DNA from: Syntrophaceae bacterium
GTDB lineage: Bacteria > Desulfobacterota > Syntrophia > Syntrophales > PHBD01
Assembly (NCBI GenBank): GCA_013177825.1
Contig: JABLXX010000015.1
Location: 1 to 37,347, forward strand
Direction of reading: 5' to 3'
DNA length: 37,347 nucleotides
Positions 1,873-12,905 of the stretch are shown here, piece by piece. Both the position numbers and the translations under genes were made by a program. Below the pieces are notes generated by a model. That model did no database searches. It saw nothing but the letters and a program-made list of their open reading frames with translations, and was not told the origin of the DNA. Every line of letters begins with the position of its first letter. Position 1 is the stretch's first letter.

Positions 1873-3210
1873 TCAGTTGAGGAAAAGCAAGGGATTGCAG
1901 GCCTTGTTCTTCACGCGGACCTCGAAGTGGAGCACGCCGGTGGCGGCCCGCTCGTCCCGGCCTACCGAACCGATCCGGGCGCCCGCCCGGACCTTGTCGT
2001 CGGCGTTCACCAGGCGGCTGCCCAGGTTCGTGTAGACCGTGGCGTAGGAGTCCTCGTGCCGGAGGATGATGGTCTCGCCGTAATCCTTCAGGGGGGCCGA
2101 GAAGATGACCGTCCCGTGCTCGGCGGCGACGACGGGGGTGCCTTCCCGGGCGGCGATCCGGACGCCGTTGGAATACATGCCGTTCTGCTGCGGGCCGAAG
2201 CGTGTGAGGACCCGGCCCTTCACGGGCCATTGGAGCTTCTTCCGTTTCTCCTTCTCCGGCTTCTCATCCCCGGACGTCGTTCCGGCGGCAGGAGGCTTTC
2301 CCTTCGCGGCCGGTGCGACGTCCTTCGCATGCTCCGGTTCACCCCCGGGCTTTACGGCCGCTGACCGCGTTCCATCCGGCCGTTCCCCCGGCTTCGGGGC
2401 CGGTTCCTTCGCTGCCTCTGCGGCCCGGTTCCTTGACTCGGCTGCCTCCTTTTCCGCTTTTTCCCTGTCTGCCTCCGAAAGGAAGACCTGTCCCTCAGCG
2501 ACGGTGATCCGCCCCGCCGGCGCTGCCGGTTTTTCCGTACGGGCCGGTGCCTTCGCTGCGGCCTTCAGGGGGGCGGGAGCGGAGGCCGGATCGGCGGTTC
2601 CCGCCGCCTTGGGCTTGAGGGCCGCCGGTTTTCGGGTTTTTGGCTCTGCGGCCGGAAAGTCCGGAGCAGGCCTGTCCTTTTTGGCTTTCGCTTCTTTCTG
2701 CTTGGGCCGGGCCGGCTCTTTCGCGCCGGCGGTCTCTTTTTCCCGTGCCTTCCCGCTGCCTTTCCTTTCCCTGCCGGAGGATGCCCTCTCCGCGGATGGC
2801 GGGGGAGGCTTGGCGGATTTTCTCGACGCCTTGGGGCGGGTGTCGTCGATGGCCGTCTTCGCTCCCGGGATAAAGAGCGCCCGGTCGGTCTCCAGGCGGT
2901 CCTTCGCGGACATGTTGTTGGCCTGCCGGATCGTATCGACGGTCACTCCGTAGGCCTGGGCGATTCCGGACAGGGTCTCCCCCTTCTTGACCAGGTGGTA
3001 GACCCCTTTGGAGGGGCGGGTTCGGGAGGCGGCGTCCGCAGGGGCAAGAAGGATTGCCACGGCCAGAAAGGCCGGCAGAATCGCCAGGACAATCAGAAAA
3101 CGGCGGAAAGAGGCCCGCAGGAACCGGCGGGGGACCGCTCCGGCGGCGGGTCCGTCAGTGCGCCTGCCAGCCGTGGTCTCCGATGAGGTCCACAAAGCGG
3201 CATCCCCCAA
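1873..3210 (-). CDS. nlpD: NlpD-like LysM/degenerate LytM murein hydrolase activator
   Basis: The 445-residue protein has a membrane or signal segment (about residues 38-58), a LysM peptidoglycan-binding domain (about 70-115), a long Lys/Ala/Pro/Glu-rich linker (about 120-322) and a C-terminal LytM/M23 domain (about 326-445). Two of three zinc ligands of active M23 enzymes appear lost: the HxGxD motif reads with Ser347 and Arg351, and only His428 of the HxH motif remains. This is the state of EnvC/NlpD proteins, which activate cell-wall amidases instead of cutting peptidoglycan. It follows pcm directly, as nlpD does in the surE-pcm-nlpD-rpoS cluster of gammaproteobacteria. The start used is TTG at 3208-3210, with AAGGA six bases upstream; it overlaps the end of pcm by 56 bases. 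The start is uncertain, and a shorter N-terminus is possible. Confidence 0.85.
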
Positions 3211-3814
3211 GATTTTCCTTTTTCAGGTCGTTCGGATCCTCGGAAAGGCGGGTGTATTTCATGAGTGTCTGGGTGAAGCGACCCCCGACGGGAACGACAA
3301 GACGTCCTCCCACGGCGAGCTGGAGGATCAGAGGGTCCGGAACGGCGGGAGCCCCTGCGGTGACGATGATCCCGTCGAAGGGGGCCTCGTCGCGCCAGCC
3401 ATACGTGCCGTCGGCCACCCGGACGGCCACGTTGTAAAGGTTCATTCCCTCCAGGAGTCGCCGGGCCTTCGTTGCCAGGGCGGGAATCCGTTCGATGGAG
3501 AAGACGTGGTCCGCCAGCATCGCCAGGATTGCCGCCTGGTAGCCCGATCCCGTCCCGATCTCGAGAACCTTTTCCTTTCCCGTCAACTCCAGGGCCTCCG
3601 TCATGAGCGCGACGATGTAGGGCTGGGAAATCGTCTGGTGCTCGTCGATCGGGAGGGGGCTGTCGTTGTAGGCCTGGCTGATGATGGCCTCGTCGACGAA
3701 GATGTGGCGCGGGACCGTCTCCATGGCCTTCAGGAGCCTCGGATCGGCGACGCCCCGGGCCCGGATCTGTGTTTCCACCATCTTCAGCCGCTGTTTCCGG
3801 TAGAGATCCGTCAT
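3155..3814 (-). CDS. pcm: Protein-L-isoaspartate O-methyltransferase
   Basis: This 219-residue protein matches the PCMT family along its length. It has the [11 protein letters not shown] segment of the active site, the SAM-binding motif [16 protein letters not shown], and the [11 protein letters not shown] and LVVPVG segments. The enzyme methylates isoaspartyl residues in aged proteins so that they return to normal aspartate, a repair role useful in slow-growing cells. Its ATG overlaps the stop of the upstream small gene in an ATGA arrangement, implying translational coupling. Downstream it overlaps nlpD. Length is close to the usual 208-220 residues. Confidence 0.95.
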
Positions 3815-4376: not shown

Positions 4377-5966
4377 ATGTCCATGCCGTCTTCTTTTCCC
4401 ATGTCCGCCGCCGTCCGTGAGGCCTACCGTTCCGGCCGGGAGGACGAGACCCTTCCGCCCGTCGTTCTCTGTGATGCCGGGGGGCGACCCCTGGGCCGCT
4501 TCCGGAAGGGCGATTCCGTGATCTTCTACAACATCCGCGGGGAGCGGGAGGGGGAACTGACGGAGAGCCTGATTCGAGATGATTTTCCGCATTTCCCGGT
4601 GGAGAACGGCCTGGACCTCCGGTTCGCCACGATGATCTCCTACGGAAAAGACCTGGACGTCCGGGTGGCCTTTCCCTCCGAGGAGGCGGTTCTGGACACC
4701 CTGGGAGACGTCCTCTCCCGCCACGGCATCCCCCAGGTCCGGATCACCGAGGCGGAGAAGGCCGTCCATGTCGGGTTCTTCCTCAGCGGGAAGCGGACCG
4801 GCCTTCTTCCCGGGGAGGAGCGGATCGTCGTGCCCACCCGGAAGGACGTGGCCCTCTTCGACGAGGCGCCCGAGATGTCGATCACGGGCATTACCGAGGC
4901 CGTCCTGGCCAGGATCCATGACCCGTCGGCCCGCTTCGTCTTCGCGAACCTGCCCAACGTGGACGTGGTGGGCCACATCGAGAACGAAGAGGCCGTCATG
5001 AAGGCCGTCGAGGCGGTGGACCGGGCCGCCGATATCCTGACCGGCGAGGCCCTCCGGGCGGGCTGGACCGTCGTCGTCACCGCCGACCACGGATCCGCCG
5101 AGAAATGGCTCTATCCCGACGGCGCCGTGGATACGGGCCACACCGACAGCCCCGTGCCGTTTCTGCTCCTCGGCCCGGCGGGCCCGGTCCCGCTCCGCCC
5201 GCAGGGCACCCTGATCGACGTGGCACCGACGATCCTGGAGCTTCTGGGCCTTCCGGCCCCCCCCGCCATGACGGGCCGGAGCCTCCTGACGAACGAAGGG
5301 GCGAAGCCCCGGGCCGAGCGGCTCCTCGTGCTCCTCCTGGACGGATGGGGGTTGAACCCTGCGAGGGAAGGGAACCTGATCGCCCGGGCCAGGACGCCCG
5401 CCATGGACCGGCTCCTGGCGGCCGGGGCGCACGCGGCCCTGGAGGCGGCCGGAGAGGCTGTCGGCCTGCCTGCCGGCACCGTGGGAAACTCCGAGGCGGG
5501 ACATCTGCACATCGGCGCCGGCCGGGTGATCTACTCCGACCGGGTCCGGATCGACCGGGCCATCGCCGACGGGTCGTTTGCCCGGAACGAGGCCTTCCGC
5601 TGGGCCGTCGAGGGGGCGAAGCGGGACGGCAGGGCCCTCCACCTGATGGGCATCGTCTCCTTCTTCAGCTCCCACGGATCCCTGAACCACCTGTATGCCC
5701 TGATGGACCTGGCCGTGGAGGCGGGACCGGCGGAGGTCTACATCCACGCCATGCTGGGCCGGCGGGGGGAGCAGCCGGAGAGCGGGGCCCGGTACATCGA
5801 GCAGGTGGAGCGGCGGGCCGCCGGGACCGGCTGCGGCCGCGTCGTCTCCGTCATCGGCCGCTACTGGTCCATGGACCGGGAGGAGAACTGGGACCGCATC
5901 GAGAAGACCTACCGGATGCTCGTCCACGGAGAAGGGCAGCCGGTCTCGGACGAAAAGGGAACGTAG
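4377..5966 (+). CDS. Circularly permuted cofactor-independent phosphoglycerate mutase
   Basis: The 529-residue protein contains all parts of GpmI but in swapped order. Residues about 10-303 match the canonical C-terminal half and residues about 315-520 match the canonical N-terminal half. The order of active-site equivalents is Arg54, Arg57, Lys156, Asp196, His200, Asp237, His238, His255, then Asp322, Ser372 (in GNSEAGH), His433, Arg463, Arg495, Arg501. In Bacillus iPGM the second group comes first. The break falls inside the phosphotransferase domain, and a linker of about ten residues joins the old C- and N-termini. The position of canonical Asp154 is Gly464. Total length is near the normal 510-530, so no half is missing or doubled. 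The expected role is interconversion of 3- and 2-phosphoglycerate with manganese; the Asp loss leaves room for a shifted activity. The start has GAAAGG upstream. Confidence 0.85.
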   Translation: MSMPSSFPMSAAVREAYRSGREDETLPPVVLCDAGGRPLGRFRKGDSVIFYNIRGEREGELTESLIRDDFPHFPVENGLDLRFATMISYGKDLDVRVAFPSEEAVLDTLGDVLSRHGIPQVRITEAEKAVHVGFFLSGKRTGLLPGEERIVVPTRKDVALFDEAPEMSITGITEAVLARIHDPSARFVFANLPNVDVVGHIENEEAVMKAVEAVDRAADILTGEALRAGWTVVVTADHGSAEKWLYPDGAVDTGHTDSPVPFLLLGPAGPVPLRPQGTLIDVAPTILELLGLPAPPAMTGRSLLTNEGAKPRAERLLVLLLDGWGLNPAREGNLIARARTPAMDRLLAAGAHAALEAAGEAVGLPAGTVGNSEAGHLHIGAGRVIYSDRVRIDRAIADGSFARNEAFRWAVEGAKRDGRALHLMGIVSFFSSHGSLNHLYALMDLAVEAGPAEVYIHAMLGRRGEQPESGARYIEQVERRAAGTGCGRVVSVIGRYWSMDREENWDRIEKTYRMLVHGEGQPVSDEKGT

Positions 5967-6049: not shown

Positions 6050-6580
6050 ATGGAAGCGGTGATCAACAAGACGAGGCTGGTCCTCGTCGAAGGGGACATC
6101 ACCCGGGAGGAGACGGACGCCATCGCCAATGCGGCCAACGAAGGGCTCCGGGGCGGGGGCGGCGTGGATGGCGCCATCCACCGGGCCGGGGGACCGGCCA
6201 TCATGGCGGAGTGCCGGAAGATCGGGTACTGCCCCACGGGTCAGGCCGTCGTCACCACCGGCGGGGACCTGAAGGCGAAGTACGTGATCCACACGGTGGG
6301 TCCCGTGTACCGGGGCGGGACGAGGGGCGAGGAGAGACTGCTGGCGAGCTGCTACACCGAGTGCCTGAAGCAGGCCGCCGCCCGGGGGTTGAAAAGCATC
6401 GCCTTTCCGTCCATCAGCACGGGGGTCTACGGATATCCCATGGATGAGGCCGCCCATGTCTCGCTGAAGGCGACAATCGAATTTCTGAAGGGGAACGAAA
6501 CCCTGGATACGGTGCGGTTTGTCCTGTTCGGGAAGGCGGCGCTGGAGGTGTACGAGCAGGAACTGCGGAAACTGCTGTAA
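6050..6580 (+). CDS. Macrodomain protein, ADP-ribose or O-acetyl-ADP-ribose hydrolase type
   Basis: This 176-residue single-domain protein has the MacroD/YmdB signature: GDIT near the start, an NAAN motif, the GGGGVDGAIHRAGG loop, and STGVYGYP in the distal ribose loop. Family members remove the acetyl group from O-acetyl-ADP-ribose or ADP-ribose from acidic residues of proteins. One consensus Val before NAAN is Ala here. A GGAGGGG ribosome site precedes the ATG. It lies 83 bases after the permuted mutase on the same strand and may be co-transcribed; a functional link between them is not evident. Confidence 0.92.
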   Translation: MEAVINKTRLVLVEGDITREETDAIANAANEGLRGGGGVDGAIHRAGGPAIMAECRKIGYCPTGQAVVTTGGDLKAKYVIHTVGPVYRGGTRGEERLLASCYTECLKQAAARGLKSIAFPSISTGVYGYPMDEAAHVSLKATIEFLKGNETLDTVRFVLFGKAALEVYEQELRKLL

Positions 6581-10596: not shown

Positions 10597-10697
10597 TCAA
10601 TCAGTTCCCACAATCAGGACCACCCGTGCCGGAACATCCCGTCCCGTTTCCGGACGAAACCGTTCACCCTTTGCCGCCACTGCCGGGAGGTTCCACC

Positions 10698-11636
10698 ATG
10701 AGCGCAGAACAACCGGAGAAGGGCCGGCTGGAGTTTCCGCTGGCCGACTGGATGAAGCAGTCTCAGGAGTTCTGGACGACCTGGATGCGGATGGCCGCGC
10801 CGTCCCGGGAGGCCGGGGGGCCATGGAAGGTCCCGCCGGGAGAGGCCGGACCGGGGGCGGCCCGCGGACGCATGCAGGAGAGCTGGGAGACGGTCTTCCG
10901 GATGTGGCAGTCTTTCTCGAGCGCCGCCAGCGATCCGACCACTGCCGATGCCGCCGTCAAGGGGCTGGAAACGCTGCCTGATTTTTACCTGAAGCTGGCG
11001 CAGGCCGGCTGGCTGGCCGTGATGAAGGCCCAGGAGCGGATGGTCGAGAAGGCCGGCAAGATCGGGCAGAAGACGGAGGCCTACCATTTCGAGGCCATCG
11101 ACCAGAACCTGATCAAGGCCTGGAAGGAGATCTACGAGGAGGAGATCAGTCAGTTCTACAAGATTCCCCAGCTCGGGCTGACCCGCTACTACCAGGAGCG
11201 GTTCAACGAGTGCATGGATCAGATGAATCTTTTCCAGGCGGCCTTTTCGGAGTTCCTCTACGTCCTCTCCGTCCCGGTGGAGAAAACCTCCAAGGTCTTC
11301 CAGGAGAAGCTGGAGGAGCTGCAGCGGGAGGGAAAGATCCCCGAGAAGTCGAGGGACTACTACCAGTTGTGGCTCCGGATCCTGGAAGGCCACTACATGA
11401 CACTCTTCCAGTCCCCCGAGTACCTGGAGGCCCTGCGGAACATGCTCGGCCAGCTGGATTCCTTCATCGCCTCGAAAAATTCGGTCCTGCAGGACGTGCT
11501 CCAGTTCCTGCCGGTGCCCACGAACAAGGAGATGGACGAACTGATCAAGGACCTGCACATCTTCAAGCGGCGGGTCCGGGAGCTGGAACGGCGGGTGAAG
11601 GCCCTCGAAAAAGGATCCACTCCCGCCACCGGATAG
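10698..11636 (+). CDS. phaE: Class III PHA synthase subunit PhaE
   Basis: The 312-residue protein has the PhaE features: a Trp-rich amphipathic N-terminus (residues about 10-35), a helical middle with FYKIPQLGLTRYYQER, and a C-terminal coiled coil (about 285-305) ending in a short polar tail. PhaE has no catalytic residues of its own; it binds PhaC and activates it at the granule surface. The ATG at 10698 is chosen over a GTG 24 codons upstream because GGGAGG lies seven bases before it. phaC follows after nine bases, as in Allochromatium and cyanobacteria. Confidence 0.93.
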   Translation: MSAEQPEKGRLEFPLADWMKQSQEFWTTWMRMAAPSREAGGPWKVPPGEAGPGAARGRMQESWETVFRMWQSFSSAASDPTTADAAVKGLETLPDFYLKLAQAGWLAVMKAQERMVEKAGKIGQKTEAYHFEAIDQNLIKAWKEIYEEEISQFYKIPQLGLTRYYQERFNECMDQMNLFQAAFSEFLYVLSVPVEKTSKVFQEKLEELQREGKIPEKSRDYYQLWLRILEGHYMTLFQSPEYLEALRNMLGQLDSFIASKNSVLQDVLQFLPVPTNKEMDELIKDLHIFKRRVRELERRVKALEKGSTPATG

Positions 11637-11645
11637 GAGGGAACG

Positions 11646-12905
11646 ATGGAACAGCCGAAGATCTCTCTGGACCTCATCCTGGCCAACCTGGCGGAAGATG
11701 CCGAAAAGGCGCAGGAGCGCGTGACCAAGGCGTCGGAAGTCCTGTTGAGCCCGCTCCACACCGACCTGGCCACCACGCCCTATGACATGGTCTGGCAGGA
11801 GGACCGGGTCAAGCTCAAGCACTACCGGACGGATGTGGAGAAGTCCGTCAGGACCCCGCTCCTGGTGGTGTACGCCCTCATCAACCGGGAGACCATGCTG
11901 GACCTCCAGCCGGACCGGAGCGTCGTCAAAACCTTCATGAACAGCGGGCTGGATCTCTACATGCTGGACTGGGGCTACCCGACCCGCAAGGATCGATATC
12001 TGACCATCGACGATCACGTCAACGGCTACATCGACGGAGCCGTCGACTTCATCCGGGAGCGGACCGGAACGGAGAAGATCAACCTGATGGGGATCTGCAT
12101 GGGCGGGACGTTCTGCGTCATCTACTCGGCCCTGCACCCCGAGAAGATCCGGAACCTCGTTACCACCGTCACCCCCTCCAGCTTCGACACCAGCAAAGGG
12201 CTGCTCCACGTCTGGATGCGGGCCATCGATGTGGACAAGCTCGTGGACACGTTCGGCAACCTGCCCGGCGACGTCATGAACATGGGGTTCCTGCTCCTGA
12301 ACCCGGCCCGGCTGATGATCGACAAGTACATCGGCTTCTTCGAGAACATGGACAACAGGGCCTTCGTGGAGAATTTCGTCCGCATGGAGAAATGGATCTT
12401 CGACAGCCCCGATGTTCCCGGGGAGACCTTCCGCCAGTTCATCAAGGATTTCTATCACGGGAACCTGCTTATCCAGAGCAAGCTGATGGTGGGCGGAAAG
12501 CGGGTGGACCTGAAGCGGATCACCATGCCGCTCCTGAATTTCTACGGCCAGTACGACCACCTGGTTCCACCGGAGGCCTGTGACAAGCTGACAAAGGCGG
12601 TGGGCAGCAAGGATACGGAGGACATCTGTCTGGACACGGGGCACATCGGGATCTATGTCAGCTCCAAGACCCAGCGGGAGTTCGCCCCGAAGATCGTCCG
12701 GTGGCTGATGGAGAGGGACGGCGCCCCCGCGGCGAAGAAAAAACCGGCGGCGCGGCTGGCCGAGATGATGGCGGCGGCCAAACCGGCGGCGAAGGAAGCG
12801 AAAGGGAAAGGAAAAGCCGGGAAAAAACCGGCGGCGCCGCGGACTCGAGGCGGCAGCGCACCGGCGGACCGGACGACGGGCCGCGAATCCATGGAAGCGA
12901 GGTAG
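11646..12905 (+). CDS. phaC: Class III PHA synthase catalytic subunit PhaC with basic tail
   Basis: The first 358 residues are a normal class III PhaC, which polymerises (R)-3-hydroxyacyl-CoA into PHA. The lipase-like box GICMGG contains the nucleophile Cys151, with Asp304 and His333 completing the triad, two residues offset from Allochromatium vinosum PhaC (149, 302, 331). The unusual part is residues about 359-419: a Lys/Ala/Pro-rich tail with AAKPAA and KGKGKAGKK segments, resembling the histone H1-like tail of PhaF-type phasins. Class III PhaC proteins normally end near residue 355-360. The tail codes without frameshift up to the TAG at 12903-12905, and the next gene starts six bases later. 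Confidence 0.95.
   Translation: MEQPKISLDLILANLAEDAEKAQERVTKASEVLLSPLHTDLATTPYDMVWQEDRVKLKHYRTDVEKSVRTPLLVVYALINRETMLDLQPDRSVVKTFMNSGLDLYMLDWGYPTRKDRYLTIDDHVNGYIDGAVDFIRERTGTEKINLMGICMGGTFCVIYSALHPEKIRNLVTTVTPSSFDTSKGLLHVWMRAIDVDKLVDTFGNLPGDVMNMGFLLLNPARLMIDKYIGFFENMDNRAFVENFVRMEKWIFDSPDVPGETFRQFIKDFYHGNLLIQSKLMVGGKRVDLKRITMPLLNFYGQYDHLVPPEACDKLTKAVGSKDTEDICLDTGHIGIYVSSKTQREFAPKIVRWLMERDGAPAAKKKPAARLAEMMAAAKPAAKEAKGKGKAGKKPAAPRTRGGSAPADRTTGRESMEAR

Follow-up and report, generated by a model that had tools for sequence, protein, structure and literature searches.

Is a reading frame that contains every segment of bacterial cofactor-independent phosphoglycerate mutase (iPGM, GpmI), with the second half placed before the first, a genuine gene, and does its product still serve as a phosphoglycerate mutase (PGM)? 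The question is raised by contig JABLXX010000015.1 of a Syntrophaceae bacterium (assembly GCA_013177825.1), of which we analysed positions 1 to 37,347, hereafter called the window. An open frame on the plus strand starts with ATG and encodes P0001, a protein of 529 amino acids followed by a stop codon. An initial annotation had read it as a natural circular permutation of GpmI. The features of the locus are as follows.

4377–5966, plus strand: circularly permuted GpmI-like gene (Pfam, TIGR01307, phmmer, dN/dS)
4410–5291, plus strand: residues 12–305, corresponding to iPGM 219–510, the remainder of the transferase domain and the C-terminal part of the phosphatase domain (phmmer to 1ejj; model against 4nwj)
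5292–5324, plus strand: linker, residues 306–316, between the old C and N termini (alignment of 85 proteins)
5325–5948, plus strand: residues 317–524, corresponding to iPGM 7–214, the N-terminal part of the phosphatase domain and the initial part of the transferase domain (phmmer to 1ejj; separate fragment model)
5490–5492, plus strand: Ser372, the Ser62 equivalent (85/85 permuted and 32/32 canonical proteins)
5658–5681, plus strand: SFFSSHGS, residues 428–435, replacing SDGGVHSH, with His433 (His123) retained (alignment)
5757–5771, plus strand: GRRGE signature, residues 461–465, replacing DGRD(T/A/V), with Arg463 (Arg153) retained and Asp154 lost (85/85 permuted, 0/32 canonical proteins)

Comparison with phmmer aligned residues 317–524 of P0001 to residues 7–214 of the 1ejj chain (191.3 bits) and residues 12–305 to residues 219–510 (191.7 bits). 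The overall E-value of 8e-113 excludes a chance match, and the two parts of P0001 align separately to opposite halves of 1ejj, with the C-terminal half first, as had been proposed. The best Pfam stretches, Metalloenzyme at residues 100–293 and iPGM_N at 392–522, likewise place the C-half before the N-half; a second iPGM_N stretch was counted by Pfam, and the positions quoted are those of the best one. Because this best stretch ends at profile position 131 of 217, close to the C-terminal end of P0001, the break lies inside the iPGM_N domain, which agrees with the break within the phosphotransferase domain that the initial annotation had described. In the numbering of the Geobacillus enzyme, the new termini lie between residues ~213 and 219. 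The GpmI equivalog model TIGR01307 matched P0001 in two stretches of swapped order with 447.1 bits (cut-off 330.65), and the stricter equivalog model PRK05434.1-5 (NF003897), with which P0001 alone was scored, gave 379.7 bits, below its cut-off of 862. The canonical order, in which the N-part with DGWG and Ser62 precedes the C-part with most of the metal ligands, was present in all 32 canonical controls and absent in P0001. The old termini are connected by the short linker that had been noted before, with a median of 12 residues (range 8–60) between the columns of residues 305 and 317 in 85 permuted proteins. P0001 shows the characteristics of a natural circular permutant: each segment occurs once, the order is rotated, the old termini are joined, and homologues of normal order exist. 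We conclude with near certainty that the gene encodes a natural circular permutant of bacterial iPGM, with termini at ~213–219 and the old ends linked by ~12 residues.

The permuted protein is widespread, as the initial annotation had thought possible. Of 41 genomes searched, 22 encode it as an uninterrupted full-length protein, that of the window and one of the same genus among them; one carrier genome (G035) consists of a single contig of 3,179,300 bases. A search across 155 Syntrophales genomes gave a permuted match in 66 at E < 1e-80, partial copies included. A pattern search of a named collection hit 440 stretches, of which 390 encode a relative; the 80 best were retained, every one of them is permuted, and many lie within long contigs. 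The genome set and the named collection overlap, since locus L056 shares its contig with the match in G001. The dN/dS value of the window gene against the 91%-identical L056 is 0.13, and the gene is under purifying selection. The idea that an assembly or annotation artefact explains the swapped halves has next to no probability given this value and the identical order in the 22 genomes, one of them a single contig, and in the best 80 named loci, many inside long contigs; the assembly error that the initial annotation had named as a possible refutation is rejected by the recurrence of the order on other contigs.

The loci carry the labels Syntrophaceae, Smithella, other deltaproteobacterial bins, Aminicenantes, Stahlbacteria/WOR-3, Zixibacteria, Eisenbacteria, Chloroflexota, Armatimonadetes, and candidate division B38, of which single ones may be wrong because nearly all loci come from metagenome bins. 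Across phyla, the permuted proteins are 52–68% identical. Among the matches listed for a phylum-wide sample of 395 genomes, permuted ones came from Syntrophales and from families f40 and f22, and many matches had the normal order. At least 11 of 199 genomes from the phylum of G547, an Aminicenantes bin, had a one-piece permuted match, five of which were already known through the named loci. None of 25 viral pattern matches was a relative.

We next consider the origin of the permutation. For a phylogenetic tree, 39 of the 85 permuted proteins, picked by hand for spread, were rotated to the usual order and combined with all 32 canonical proteins. The permuted proteins formed one clade (support 100/100; stem of 0.79 changes per site), separate from the 26 typical canonical proteins and from the six divergent canonical ones of Syntrophales. 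On account of this grouping, a single origin of the permutation is well supported on this sample. On the tree, the permutation is older than the dispersal of the family across several phyla of bacteria, and it probably arose by tandem duplication followed by loss of the outer halves. Two long one-piece matches, considered as tandem-duplication intermediates (in G389 and G241), proved to be the normal-order genes L146 and L147, and no intermediate turned up incidentally. None of the 32 canonical proteins was a transitional form combining normal order with the permuted signature, and normal-order N-halves reached at most 49% identity among the matches listed in the 395-genome and 199-genome searches.

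An AlphaFold2 model of whole P0001, computed from the window protein and named relatives, had a mean pLDDT of 91.9; less certain blocks include residues 431–440 (pLDDT 76) and 461–470 (pLDDT 70). Residues 7–306 of the model aligned to residues 214–505 of 4nwj (Z 22.3; rmsd 1.7 over 292). The rmsd was larger, up to 8.1, with other structure entries; order-bound aligners pair the first part of P0001 with the second part of iPGMs. In VIA-align, iPGMs fill the first 16 of 50 rows, and all 22 Foldseek matches at E ≤ 0.001 are iPGMs as well. When the last 219 residues were modelled separately, residues 1–218 aligned to residues 3–243 of 1ejj (Z 12.5; rmsd 3.2 over 200) with a mean pLDDT of 68.5, a weak value that may be expected because the fragment is part of a domain. 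Numbered from 1, this fragment carries D12, S62, H123, R153, R185, and R191 at the standard iPGM numbers. Identity to 1ejj in the structural alignments was 38% for the C-part and 45% for the N-part. The permuted protein is predicted to adopt the iPGM fold, and the superposition suggested in the initial annotation came out in its favour.

The pocket was compared in an alignment of the 85 permuted and 32 canonical (26 typical, six divergent) proteins. Asp12, Asp403, His407, Asp444, His445, and His462, which we take to be the two-metal ligands of iPGM, are invariant in 85/85 permuted and 32/32 canonical proteins. Equally invariant in both sets are the equivalents of Ser62, presumably the iPGM nucleophile, and of His123, Arg153, Arg185, Arg261, and Arg264; that of Arg191 is likewise constant across the 85 permuted and the 26 typical canonical proteins and falls in a gap in the six divergent ones. 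We assume that His123 and the five arginines are substrate residues of iPGM. In P0001, R54, R57, D196, H200, D237, H238, H255, D322, S372, H433, R463, R495, and R501 occupy exactly the positions that had been listed as active-site equivalents. Lys156, from the same list, is correctly placed as the Lys336 equivalent, but lysine occurs there in only 54 of the 85 permuted proteins, as well as in 17 of 26 typical and none of six divergent canonical proteins (17/32 in total).

Other positions of the pocket have changed throughout the family. Asp154, which contacts the glycerate in iPGM, is aspartate in 32/32 canonical and glycine in 85/85 permuted proteins. Both the identity of this glycine in P0001 (Gly464) and the altered SDGGVHSH region had been recognized in the initial annotation. 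Asn447 of the DHGN motif, present in 32/32 canonical proteins, is replaced by threonine in 83 and by serine in two permuted proteins. Asp151→Gly, Gly152→Arg, glutamate at residue 155, Ser-Ser at residues 121–122, and Ser124→Gly are fixed in the permuted set, where Asp119 is replaced by Phe, His, Lys, or Arg and Gly120 by Phe or Tyr. At the level of loops, DGRD has become GRRGE, DGGVHS has become (F/H/K/R)(F/Y)SSHG, and DHGN has become DHGT or DHGS. The changed residues presumably line the substrate site. As far as the sequence tells, the suggestion that activity may have shifted was right: the residue pattern looks like that of an enzyme in which the chemistry has stayed the same and the substrate has changed.

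Whether a normal gpmI or gpmA accompanies the permuted gene had been raised as a further check. In the window genome, the permuted gene is the only GpmI-like gene, and no match to the cofactor-dependent enzyme (dPGM) was found. The genome contains two PF10143 genes, one of the PRK04200/TIGR02535 type ('proposed homoserine kinase') and one matching the PGM equivalog model PRK04135 with 580 bits (cut-off 468). For the 155 Syntrophales genomes, a presence table was compiled by hand from search listings. The presence of canonical GpmI was partly read from match counts, with an unassigned second match in G128 left uncounted, and partial PRK04135 genes in G006, G044, G097, and G147 were counted as present. 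Canonical GpmI occurred together with PRK04135 in one genome (Fisher p = 1.7e-13) and together with dPGM in one (p = 9e-5), and PRK04135 and dPGM showed a weaker exclusion trend (seven genomes; p = 0.09); these p values overstate the evidence because the genomes are related. The permuted gene did not clearly depart from independence with canonical GpmI (20 genomes; p = 0.50), PRK04135 (28; p = 0.51), or dPGM (16; p = 0.10). According to our reading of the listings, the families in which it co-occurs with another PGM number 10 for PRK04135, four for canonical GpmI, and seven for dPGM.

For the comparison of carriers with non-carriers, genomes with fragments only (G039, G042, G097, G099, G134, and G141) were set aside. 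At a completeness of at least 95%, another PGM was present in 45 of 47 carriers and 34 of 35 non-carriers (two ambiguous genomes set aside); the corresponding numbers were 51/54 and 48/52 at ≥90% (two set aside) and 57/66 and 69/83 at any completeness (six set aside). Canonical GpmI, PRK04135, and dPGM were all not found in three carriers, G038, G075, and G010 (96, 95, and 92% complete), nor in six further, less complete carriers of the 155-genome set. In these nine genomes the permuted gene could be the mutase. Among 31 carriers reached through named loci, all 31 had another PGM and a PF10143 gene. PRK04135 was present in 30 of these genomes, which were picked as carriers so that the count describes carriers only; 28 exceeded the cut-off, and G546 and G558 had it in pieces on contig ends. 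The remaining one, G552, has canonical GpmI. The 31 genomes include G563, which is G153 of the 155-genome set, and G564, which is G274 of the 395-genome sample (identical coordinates).

From its family name and the exclusion pattern, PRK04135 is probably the housekeeping PGM of many carriers. The accessible part of Foster et al. (2010; PMC2964296) supports this role, as it describes the archaeal-type iPGM as often the sole PGM of bacteria. It also reports that many bacteria keep two PGMs, and co-occurrence alone is therefore no proof of a new function. Three archaeal-type iPGMs are ascribed there to Syntrophus aciditrophicus; G035 contains three PF10143 genes. A PF10143 gene occurs in 38 of 41 genomes searched. 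The PRK04200/TIGR02535 model fits three of ten PF10143 genes examined (L136 at G000:C1:208600-211000, L141, and L143), and by score most Syntrophales genomes seem to have a gene of this type besides any PGM. The divergent normal-order GpmI proteins of Syntrophales (L024–L028 and L030) have frames of ~544–580 amino acids, form a deep clade of their own, and are almost never found in the same genome as PRK04135 or dPGM.

The gene neighbourhood was analysed by clustering the open frames of 81 loci, the 80 named ones and the window; neighbour order was examined in 34 of the 80. By our own grouping, 52 loci, including the window, are labelled deltaproteobacterial. In these, pcm-like genes lie near the start of the permuted gene on the opposite strand (45/52), M23-peptidase-type genes lie upstream, mostly on the opposite strand (45/52), and macro-domain homologues lie on the same strand (43/52). 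The neighbours of this set in the window are the following.

1873–3814, minus strand, and 6050–6580, plus strand: window neighbours from the pcm-like, M23-type, and macro-domain set

An M23-type gene on either strand occurs near the permuted gene in seven of the 29 other loci, with the domain confirmed at one of them, and is the sole neighbour seen to be shared across phyla; M23 genes are common, and we attach no conclusion to this. Downstream of the permuted gene, Aminicenantes often have ABC-2-type transporter genes (domains checked at one locus), and in two Chloroflexota a His_Phos_1 gene of the histidine-phosphatase superfamily lies directly 3′ of it on the same strand (L103:8554-9177:+ and L114:8566-9189:+). 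No conserved neighbour or operon that names a pathway or substrate was found among the 81 clustered loci. In the Desulfobacterales-labelled bin G552, an ATP-sulfurylase/APS-kinase gene (L124:3-1028:+, incomplete at its start) precedes the permuted gene. Elsewhere in the window, a 676-codon frame at 10614–12644 on the minus strand has no Pfam match at 1e-5 and may be a GC-rich shadow frame.

How does the permuted protein compare with known systems? It shares with bacterial GpmI (TIGR01307; 1ejj, 1o98, 4nwj) the predicted fold, both halves, the two-metal site, and the equivalents of Ser62, His123, and the five arginines. It differs in the order of the halves, the new termini inside the transferase domain, Asp154→Gly, the GRRGE and SSHG loops, the change from DHGN to DHGT/S, and the presence of another PGM in most carriers. 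The archaeal-type iPGM (PRK04135/TIGR00306, PF10143) belongs to the same superfamily, but PF10143 is not among the Pfam matches of P0001 and TIGR00306 scored 36.3 bits (cut-off 320). The divergent canonical GpmI of Syntrophales comes from the same bacterial order as P0001 and belongs to the iPGM family; it differs in that its halves stand in the normal sequence, its identity to the P0001 halves is ~29–36%, and its clade is separate (100/100). A precedent for permutation is PGM3, a phosphomutase that has a phosphoserine loop and whose first domain is a natural circular permutation of the corresponding domain in its paralogues (PMC5570346). PGM3, however, belongs to the alpha-D-phosphohexomutase superfamily, and ~60 residues of domain 1 have moved (PMC5570346), compared with half of the protein in P0001. 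A precedent for another reaction in the iPGM superfamily, by family name only, is PhpG (CMP-5′-phosphonoformate--3-phosphoglycerate phosphonoformyl transferase, NF038358), from which P0001 differs with a score of 18 bits (cut-off 545).

The initial annotation knew of no permuted GpmI, and no description of a circularly permuted iPGM was found in the literature searched, which covered few subscription papers; nor was a permuted member of the alkaline phosphatase superfamily found there. The accessible portions of PMC2876114, PMC6957218, PMC11046441, and PMC5570346 do not mention a permuted iPGM, 'permut' is absent from PMC2964296 and PMC12077085, and the whole word 'circular' is absent from PMC5382265, the available part of which gives the metal-site residues of C. 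elegans iPGM.

What, then, does the permuted protein do? We consider it rather likely, as a whole, that it is a once-arisen permutant of iPGM that has been repurposed and probably does not serve its hosts as the housekeeping mutase. It would fold as an iPGM and retain the two-metal site, the serine, and the arginines that bind phosphate and carboxylate. Because these are retained, a phosphoryl group is most likely still moved via a phosphoserine intermediate. Most plausibly, it has been turned into a mutase or phosphatase for some phosphorylated acid that is neither 2- nor 3-phosphoglycerate. Since the pocket changes are fixed, a separate PGM is usual, and the gene stands outside the exclusion pattern of the PGMs, the protein probably plays an accessory part as a repurposed phosphotransferase. 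That the permutation marks such a repurposed paralogue, and not a housekeeping enzyme with its halves exchanged, is likely, though short of proof; against a change of function, the retained arginines, His123, and metal ligands would equally suit a true phosphoglycerate mutase. We see an even chance for the more specific proposal of a new phosphomutase or phosphotransferase activity on an unrecognised phosphorylated acid, carried by a separate SSHG...GRRGE family that descends from a once-permuted GpmI in syntrophic and subsurface bacteria of several phyla.

The protein might instead be a second, working phosphoglycerate mutase for some conditions, such as metal supply or gluconeogenesis, in which the pocket changes are tolerated. 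Such a role would suit the serine, metal ligands, His123, and five arginines that are invariant in 85/85 proteins, the score above the TIGR01307 cut-off, the PGM redundancy reported in the available part of PMC2964296, and the three carriers of at least 92% completeness in which no other PGM was found. It is nevertheless unlikely: Asp154, Asn447, and the DGRD loop, invariant in 32/32 canonical proteins, are altered in 85/85 permuted ones, and canonical GpmI nearly excludes PRK04135 and dPGM in Syntrophales, as one mutase per genome predicts, whereas the permuted gene stands outside this pattern. Still less probable, and to our mind quite doubtful, is a phosphatase or regulator in which, without Asp154, the phosphoserine is hydrolysed or phosphoglycerate is merely sensed. 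The loss of this glycerate contact could uncouple the second transfer, and the less certain blocks of the model include residues 431–440 and 461–470; yet a sensor would require far less conservation than the retained residues show, and a plain phosphatase would have little use for the entire transferase domain, which is kept in proteins of different phyla with 52–68% identity.

The point of the initial annotation that calls for amendment is the designation 'central glycolytic enzyme': a further PGM accompanies the permuted gene in most near-complete carriers, and the altered pocket is constant in the family. For these reasons the protein is better described as a 'permuted and repurposed paralogue' than as a 'permuted GpmI'. 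As P0001 scores above the TIGR01307 cut-off, automatic annotation likely credits carriers with a second glycolytic mutase where the protein may be something else. Because an old permutation of single origin, purifying selection, and a fixed pocket change occur together here, permutation and functional change are open to joint study in one family. The true substrate of the permuted protein could reveal an unrecognised metabolic step in syntrophic and subsurface bacteria.
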